A stretch of DNA of 64,000 bases, from assembly GCA_028870665.1 (NCBI GenBank), contig JAGWPB010000007.1, positions 1 through 64,000 of the forward strand. Direction: 5' to 3'. Below are positions 14,990 to 39,761 of this stretch, piece after piece. How positions within the stretch are numbered: position 1 is the stretch's first letter; each line of letters opens with the position of its first letter. Below the pieces are notes generated by a model that saw only the letters and a program-made list of their open reading frames with translations, had not been told where the DNA came from and did not search any database. The stretch comes from Lysobacteraceae bacterium. GTDB taxonomy: Bacteria > Pseudomonadota > Gammaproteobacteria > Xanthomonadales > Rhodanobacteraceae. Position numbers and translations under genes: made by a program.

Positions 14990-15020
14990 CTCCCCCTGCG
15001 CTGGGCAGTCGCAGGGGGAG
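14990..15020. terminator. Hairpin 3 of array (CTCCCCCTGCG-N9-CGCAGGGGGAG)
   Basis: 11-bp perfect stem; likely transcription terminator of the minus-strand MetJ-H1 gene. Confidence 0.55.
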
Positions 15021-15120
15021 CGAGCAGGAGTGAAACACGATCTTATTGGTTGTGCGCCTTTCTCTTGAGAATGCCAAGGTGGCGCGAGCCACCCTGGCAG
15101 CGGTCGCCTGTACAGGCTTC

Positions 15121-15546
15121 CTACTTGGCAGCCTTTTTCGCTGCCGGCTTCTTCGCGGCGGCCTTCCTGGCCGGCTTCTTCGCCGCTGCGGTCTTGCGCG
15201 CAGTGGTGGCCTTGGCCTTGACGGTCTTCTTCACGGCCTTCTTTGCAGTTGACTTCTTCGCGGCCGGTTTCTTGGCAGCGGGTTTCTTTGCAGCTTTCTT
15301 GGTCATAGCCATAGTTCGTCTCAGCTCCTCGTCAGTTGGCAGTGGTTGCCCAGTAAAAGCGTGCAGGAACGCCTCACACAGCAAGTCGCTGTTCGTGGCG
15401 TGCCGAAGATTGTTGACTTGGCGACGCGTGCGCTCGTCAGCGAGCAGACGCAGCACGTGCACCGGGACGGAAACGGTGACCTTGCGGACCGCACCCGCCT
15501 TGCTGCCGTGCTCGATGTAGGGATCGATGAATCGATTGGCCGCCAT
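15121..15546 (-). CDS. metJ: MetJ-type ribbon-helix-helix methionine repressor fused to a histone H1-like Lys/Ala-rich tail
   Basis: Residues 1-78 [78 protein letters not shown] match the MetJ core; residues 79-141 [25 protein letters not shown]... are H1-like. Junction re-read on the nucleotide sequence and in frame. Confidence 0.88.
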
Positions 15547-15577
15547 GATTTTTTATATCGCGCGCTTTCGGGCGCAA

Positions 15578-15606
15578 AAGCTATTCCGGTCTTTCACACG
15601 TGTCAA
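15578..15606 (-). promoter_or_regulatory. Candidate sigma70 promoter of the MetJ-H1 gene
   Basis: Minus strand TTGACA-N17-TAGCTT about 35 nt upstream of the ATG. Confidence 0.5.
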
Positions 15607-15702
15607 TGGATATTGTGCGGCGATTCACCGGGGGATCGTCGGCGACCACGATGGCGCGACAGCCCGGCCGCCTTTCCGGATCGACTTCCGATTTAGTCAA
15701 AT

Positions 15703-15726
15703 GGACGTCTATACGTCTTTATGTCC
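15703..15726. promoter_or_regulatory. Tandem met boxes (MetJ operator)
   Basis: Contiguous 8-mers GGACGTCT|ATACGTCT|TTATGTCC; the first two match AGACGTCT at 7/8 each; enclosed by inverted repeat AAATGGAC (15699-15706) / GTCCATTT (15723-15730). Confidence 0.75.
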
Positions 15727-15891
15727 ATTTACTTTCACCGGACACGAATCGCCGAAAGCCTTGCGGCACAAGCGATCCGGGGCATCCGCAGGCGATCGCG
15801 GAAAGGCGATGCGAGCGCACCTCGACCCGGGGCCGGCCTGGCCTCGGAGCGCCCGACGGATCCGCTCCGGGCCGCCGGGAGGCGTCGGGGA

Positions 15892-17247
15892 TCAGTTCGC
15901 CGCGATGGTCAGCGCGGCGGCAAAACGGTCAAGGTCGGCAGCCGTTTTGGTCTCGGTCGCGCAAACCAGCAGCGCATCACCGAGTTGCGGATAGTCTTCG
16001 CCGAGCGCGACGCCGGCGATGATGTTGTCGCGTGCGAGGCGATCGATGATCGCGCTTGCCGGCTGTGCAAACAGCAGCGCCAGCTCGTGGAAGAACGGGC
16101 GCGTGAACAGCACGCGCACACCGGGGATCGCGATCAGGCGGTCGCGCAACGCGCGGGTGTTGCGCATCGAATGCGCGGCGACGCGCTGCAGTCCCTGCGG
16201 CCCCAGCAGCGCCATGTGGATGGTCGCCGCGGTGACCAGCAGACCCTGGTTGGTGCAGATATTGGAGGTGGCCTTGGCACGCCGGATATGCTGCTCGCGC
16301 GCCTGCAGGGTGAGCGCGAAGCCTGCGCGCCCGTCGACGTCGGTGGTGCGCCCGACAATGCGCCCGGGCATCTGGCGCACGAACTCCTGCTTGCAGGCGA
16401 GGATGCCGAAGTAGGGGCCGCCGGAACTCAGCGGCACACCGAGCGGCTGGCCATCGCCGCAAGCGATGTCGGCACCGGTCGTCCCCCACTGACCGGGCGC
16501 CTTCAGCACCGCCAGCGCCAGCGGATTGACCACCGCGATCACCAGCGCGCCGAGCGCATGGGCCCAGTCGGTCAGCGCATCGACGTCCTCGAGCACGCCG
16601 AAGAAGTTGGGCTGCGGGATCACCAGCGCGGTGAAAGCGCCGAAATCCTGCGCCTTCAGCCACGCCGGATCGAGCGCGCCCCCGCGCGCGGCGACCTCGA
16701 GTTCGATCACCTCGATACCCTGCAGGCCGACGATGGTCCGCAGCGTCTTGCGGTAGGCCGGATGCACGCTGTCGGGCACCAGCACACGGCGCGGACCCTT
16801 CCTGGCGCAGCGCTCGGCCATCAGCACGGCCTCGGCGACCGCGGTCGCACCGTCATACAGCGAGGCATTGCTGACGTCGAGCCCGGTCAGCCGCGTCATC
16901 ATCGTCTGGTATTCGTAGATCAGCTGCAGCGTGCCCTGGCTTGCCTCGGCCTGGTAAGGCGTATAGGCCGAGTAGAACTCGCCGCGGGTGACGATCGGCC
17001 AAACCGCAGCCGGGATGTGGTGCTCGTAGGCGCCGGCACCGGCGAAATTGAGCGGCGTGCCATCCCGCGCCGCGCGTTCCCGCATCAGCCGCGTGGCGTC
17101 CATCTCCGACAGGCCCGGCGGCACCTGTCTGAGCGCATCGATGCGCAGGGTCGCGGGAATCTCGTCGAACAGGTCCTCGATGTCGGCGACGCCGATGGTC
17201 TTGAGCATCGCGCGGACGTCGGCTTCGGTGTGCGGAATGAACGGCAT
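15892..17247 (-). CDS. gcvPA: Glycine dehydrogenase (decarboxylating) subunit 1
   Basis: [31 protein letters not shown]...[30 protein letters not shown]; length and start typical of the split P-protein N-terminal subunit. Confidence 0.92.
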
Positions 17248-39619: not shown

Positions 39620-39685
39620 GGCGGGTCTCCGGTGAAATGGGGCGCCCGCCCCGGGGGGCGGACGGCGGCGAGGAACTCGCCTCAA

Positions 39686-39761
39686 CCGGGCGCCGTTGCA
39701 GTCGGGCGTCCGCCGAGCCTGGCTCCGGCTTGCACGGAGTCGCAGCGCCCCTCGGCGGGCG
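39686..39761 (-). promoter_or_regulatory. SAH riboswitch
   Basis: Reverse complement CCCGCCGAGGGGCGCTGCGACTCCGTGCAAGCCGGAGCCAGGCTCGGCGGACGCCCGACTGCAACGGCGCCCGG matches the SAH riboswitch core (GAGG.GCGCUGC, GCCAGGCUCGG, GCAACGGCGC). Confidence 0.93.

Follow-up and report, generated by a model that had tools for sequence, protein, structure and literature searches.

The stretch of DNA analysed here (the window, 64,000 nucleotides) carries two neighbouring genes on its minus strand: gcvPA (glycine decarboxylase; 15892..17247, PF02347 E=1e-119) and, downstream of it, metJ-H1, coding for a 141-aa protein that consists of a MetJ ribbon-helix-helix (RHH) domain (15304..15546, minus strand) and a histone-H1/HC2-like lysine-alanine tail (15121..15303, minus strand). 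Between the two genes lies a putative MetJ operator (15699..15730, no strand assigned) in which tandem met boxes are set within an inverted repeat. As both genes are on the same strand, there is no divergent gene to compete for the operator; gcv genes are also found upstream of metJ in most of the named relatives examined.

The RHH half, which a sequence-only reading of this DNA had taken for a functional MetJ, scores well above the curated cut-offs of both Pfam (PF01340, E=2e-38, 130.7 bits, cut-off 25) and NCBIfam (NF003622 MetJ equivalog, 133.7 bits, cut-off 110), which identifies it as a MetJ. The E. coli MetJ structures 1cma and 1mj2 align to the protein across residues 4–81, and the lysine-alanine repeat resembling HC2/H1 begins after residue 81, its match to PF07382 (HC2, E=1.5e-5) being below that family's cut-off. 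In an alignment of 11 sequences the beta-strand residues K22 and T24 (alignment numbering) are invariant; these correspond to K23 and T25 in E. coli numbering, the DNA-contacting Lys and Thr of MetJ. Similar tails are found in the Rhodanobacteraceae genera examined. The genome that carries the operator thus encodes the cognate MetJ, as do all of the sampled genomes of the family (77/77), and elsewhere in the order MetJ was limited, among the sampled genomes, to families f9 and f12 and one f8 genome. In proteomics of Rhodanobacter R12, MetJ goes up and four methionine-synthesis enzymes go down, a correlation only, and the authors term MetJ a putative repressor (PMC12146267).

Architecture and conservation of the probable operator

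The operator sequence, AAATGGACGTCTATACGTCTTTATGTCCATTT, contains two contiguous met boxes, GGACGTCT (15703..15710, plus strand) and ATACGTCT (15711..15718, plus strand), each matching the E. coli met box, AGACGTCT, at 7/8 positions, which is the contiguous arrangement expected of a MetJ operator and agrees with the earlier description. The third unit of that description, TTATGTCC (15719..15726, plus strand), is present, but with 4/8 matches to AGACGTCT by a by-eye count it is a weak box. The flanking inverted repeat is as had been described, the arms AAATGGAC (15699–15706) and GTCCATTT (15723–15730) being complementary at 8/8 positions. The 16-bp double box matches AGACGTCTAGACGTCT at 14/16 positions (2 mismatches); with up to 3 mismatches allowed it is the sole match to AGACGTCTAGACGTCT in the window, as compared to 0.05 expected from dinucleotide shuffles.

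The phased repeats, on whose conservation in close relatives the sequence-only reading had staked its case, are indeed retained: tandem boxes match at p<=0.01 in 44/50 Rhodanobacteraceae metJ loci, and three flanking control windows of the same size at the 50 loci yielded no match scoring 14 or more. In the loci with a match the boxes nearly always lie 165–190 bp before the metJ start codon. The main exceptions among the 50 loci come from genus g9 (Luteibacter), in the four examined genomes of which the boxes before metJ fall short of significance and those at the met operon are intact; the same holds for 1/4 genomes of g7. This combination indicates that control of metJ itself is dispensable.

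The metJ promoter, TTGACA-17-TAGCTT, has its -35 at 15601..15606 and its -10 at 15578..15583 (both minus strand). Both elements are strikingly conserved, with TTGACA-17-TA(G/A)NTT kept in 50/50 relatives, 55–65 bp ahead of the start codon. The operator lies clear of this promoter: from the box edge to the -35 we measured 96 bp, close to the roughly 90 bp noted earlier, and the distance is 94–110 bp at nearly all loci of relatives with recognisable boxes. Overlapping or abutting the promoter is not a strict requirement for a MetJ operator. A separation of 94–110 bp from the sole conserved metJ promoter argues against simple occlusion, and the constancy of the spacing, combined with little conservation of its sequence, suggests a geometric constraint. 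Directly upstream of the metJ -35, several genera (loci L094, L095, L105–L107, L118 and L130) carry a separate inverted repeat, TTGATTT-N8-AAATCAA, possibly the site of another regulator.

As a MetJ operator, the boxes could instead act on a second promoter, or on a short, unannotated transcript that begins there, rather than on the conserved metJ promoter, a possibility for which the sequence-only reading had left room. The 96 bp between the boxes and the conserved promoter fit such an arrangement, as do the TTGACT found immediately after the boxes on the metJ strand of the window and the weak promoter scores near the boxes (median about 3–4, as compared to 10.4 for the main promoter). However, sigma-70 scoring of the metJ loci of relatives picked out a single strong, conserved promoter at 138 bp from the box start, with no -35/-10 pair recurring at the boxes. 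Furthermore, the spacer between boxes and promoter has no conserved fold (alifold consensus energy 0), an Rfam search returned nothing between the boxes and the metJ promoter, and the near-constant spacing would be needless for a free-standing transcript. An automated promoter scan reported none in 15000–16000 but also misses the conserved metJ promoter, and is hence uninformative. The relatives thus lend no backing to a second promoter or hidden transcript at the boxes, which we consider unlikely, if worth keeping in mind.

Met boxes and a SAM-I riboswitch on the metX operon

A met-box scan of the whole 2.6-Mb genome, which the sequence-only reading had proposed, located a second strong array at the met operon. 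The query RGACGTCTANACGTCT with up to 1 mismatch is found in 4 places, two of them the promoters of metJ and of the met operon; the remaining two strong matches (C61:27518 and C101:14884) lie inside coding frames and were treated as chance. The second array, AGACGTATAAACGTCTAGATGTCT (C49:18804–18827), is one base away from a TTGACA and is followed by a SAM-I riboswitch (RF00162, 82.7 bits, gathering threshold 44.4) and then by a MetX-family gene.

The SAM-I riboswitch is present in 77/77 sampled Rhodanobacteraceae genomes, and in all of the leaders of the family that could be read automatically (47/47) tandem met boxes adjoin the -35 of the SAM-I metX operon, either directly or at a distance of a few bases. 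We detected no tandem met boxes at the met-operon leaders of other families (0/37; 19 from f2 and 18 others). As MetJ and SAM-I hardly coexist in the sampled genomes of f9 and f12, having both on one operon sets Rhodanobacteraceae apart among the families sampled; here two sensors of one metabolite, MetJ and SAM-I, are apparently stacked in series. In genus g44 of f9 the MetJ-bearing and the SAM-I-bearing genomes form separate sets, and in f12 MetJ occurs without SAM-I. The pattern in these two families suggests that MetJ and SAM-I can replace each other. The window itself also holds an SAH riboswitch aptamer (RF01057, 58 bits; 39681–39759, minus strand), a further RNA control element of the SAM cycle, about 24 kb from metJ.

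A wider candidate regulon

Exact matches to RGACGTNTRNACGTCY are present in 85/88 Rhodanobacteraceae genomes, with the reversed control nearly empty, and in 0/25 genomes of the MetJ-less family f2, which is probably Xanthomonadaceae. Outside coding sequence, sites recur upstream of metJ, the metX operon, aspartokinase genes, cysJ, the divergent cysG/cysB pair, gltB and purH, with target family names checked on one example each. In the genus of the window a site also recurs at cysK, where in the genome under study (contig C37) GGACGGCTAAACGTCC lies about 195 bp upstream of the start. The predicted targets thus recur in sulfur and aspartate-family metabolism. The regulon scan consists of pattern searches, by which degenerate sites may be missed. 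Many matches to GGACGTCTGGACGTCC lie inside open frames; those at cysJ and purH in fact precede the true start and others look coding, and given this mixture we give no regulon size.

Some sites lie elsewhere. Just past the 3' end of a cell-wall-hydrolase-like gene, and adjacent to a hairpin, there is a met-box palindrome (L048, G000:C48:39–70; L053, G000:C56:5–20); in two other genera (L349 near 1777 and L396 near 1501) it also lies just past the 3' end of a convergent lipoprotein gene. It is kept in three genera, has no obvious promoter, and two contigs of the genome under study (C48 and C56) break inside it. Another contig, C55, carries a perfect 13-bp inverted repeat, ACGGACGTCTGGA-CA-TCCAGACGTCCGT, built of met boxes (L049 near 2862, G000:C55:13861–13884); it sits immediately behind a stop codon, in the gap between convergent genes, and is followed by a terminator-like hairpin.

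A counter-point to reading the boxes as operators comes from those strong sites that sit between convergent genes and offer a repressor no obvious target. Such very similar palindromes in several genomes, including the one under study (C48/C56 and C55), would be expected if the site belonged to a family of intergenic, REP-like or structural palindromes that resemble met boxes by accident. Yet the sites are fixed at orthologous promoters at set distances, the sequence outside the boxes differs from site to site, and the pattern is absent from the 25 MetJ-less f2 genomes. Given the anchoring to orthologous promoters and the absence from genomes lacking MetJ, we reject a palindrome family as the main explanation and regard it as highly improbable.

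A probable SamR palindrome in Rhodanobacteraceae and related families

A SamR motif has been reported for Xanthomonadales (Leyn et al. 2014, PMC4239095). In our analysis a 24-bp ATC...GAT palindrome accompanies the met-operon -35 in 17/19 leaders of f2 and in 4/4 of f4–f6, and is found beside it in 0/47 Rhodanobacteraceae leaders. We assign this palindrome, which is consistent with the reported SamR motif, to SamR. A SamR-like gene of the ArsR family adjoins metH in the genome under study and in relatives from both families, and the palindrome is present at samR-metH in most genomes checked, Rhodanobacteraceae and f2 alike. The most economical history would have MetJ boxes take the place of a SamR operator at the met-operon promoter alone, with SamR keeping metH. 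In one Rhodanobacteraceae genome (G238, L192 near 1501) a SamR-like palindrome lies upstream of metE, so that some methionine genes of the family may still be under SamR-type control.

That the boxes at metJ are instead the site of a different factor, such as the ArsR-type SamR encoded next to metH in this genome and its relatives, is extremely improbable, since the 24-bp palindrome that we assign to SamR has another sequence and occupies the met operon solely outside Rhodanobacteraceae.

Discussion

We propose, with a probability of about 0.88, that 15699–15730 is a genuine operator for the SAM-responsive RHH repressor MetJ-H1 encoded alongside it. The proposal draws on the retention of the boxes at 44/50 metJ loci and on their placement at the SAM-I met operon in 47/47 leaders, and it accords with the sequence-only reading of the site as a MetJ operator. 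Chance occurrence of the boxes is ruled out by the expectation of 0.05 in the window, the 44/50 metJ loci and the 85/88 versus 0/25 genomes.

From what is established, namely the sequence, its conservation, the genomic positions and the co-occurrence with metJ, we infer binding, SAM dependence, the direction of regulation and a role for the tail. At high SAM, MetJ-H1 dimers would bind contiguous 8-bp boxes cooperatively. On the metX-metB-type operon, where the boxes abut the -35, bound MetJ would block RNA polymerase, and a transcript escaping MetJ would then meet the SAM-I riboswitch. At metJ, autoregulation, if real, would act at a distance through bending, looping or spreading, with the lysine-rich tail perhaps helping; alternatively, MetJ may act there via an unrecognised upstream promoter. 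More speculatively, and in our estimation doubtful, MetJ-H1 might be both a SAM-dependent repressor and a DNA-bridging protein, the tails of which connect operators with promoters some 98 bp distant and with further operators, those between convergent genes included. If true, the SAM level would alter not just transcription but also the local architecture of the chromosome.

Leyn et al. 2014 reconstructed the MetJ regulon for six groups of gammaproteobacteria, reported no MetJ in their four Xanthomonadales genomes, and put the origin of MetJ in other orders (PMC4239095). With MetJ in none of those Xanthomonadales genomes, the Rhodanobacteraceae MetJ regulon, with its repressor bearing an H1-like tail, appears undescribed. 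In the open-access literature we found no description of MetJ operators in Rhodanobacteraceae and none of MetJ together with a SAM riboswitch on one operon, which is weak evidence of absence. Our analysis would extend MetJ control to this family, the genera of which include Dyella, Rhodanobacter, Luteibacter, Frateuria, Dokdonella, Tahibacter and Mizugakiibacter. The metX operon is an apparent case of unrelated SAM sensors, repressor and then riboswitch, acting in series; and the presence of one riboswitch operon under two types of repressor site in related families offers a natural comparison for circuit swapping. The H1-like tail, in turn, makes MetJ-H1 a candidate repressor with a nucleoid-protein extension.

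As compared to the MetJ regulons of Enterobacterales, Vibrionales and other groups (PMC4239095), the Rhodanobacteraceae system shares the contiguous 8-bp AGACGTCT boxes and the targeting of metJ and methionine-pathway genes, but its predicted targets extend to cysteine synthesis, gltB and purH, and its main methionine target also carries a SAM-I riboswitch. The H1-like tail of MetJ-H1 replaces the C-terminal segment of E. coli MetJ; its lysine-alanine-proline repeats, such as AKKPAAKK, are common to the histone H1-like proteins HC2 of Chlamydia and AlgP of Pseudomonas, although in MetJ-H1 the repeat is a tail on a sequence-specific repressor. The SAM-I met operon of Xanthomonas campestris (PMC6230763, PMC7270179) is of the same kind, with a homoserine acyltransferase as the first gene and a SAM-I leader. 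For X. campestris, however, a lack of metJ is reported, along with a met promoter unresponsive to methionine (PMC6230763), whereas in Rhodanobacteraceae the met-operon promoter carries MetJ boxes. Finally, relative to the SamR regulon of Xanthomonadales, Rhodanobacteraceae retain samR-metH and usually its palindrome, but at the met operon MetJ boxes hold the position that the palindrome occupies in f2, f4, f5 and f6.
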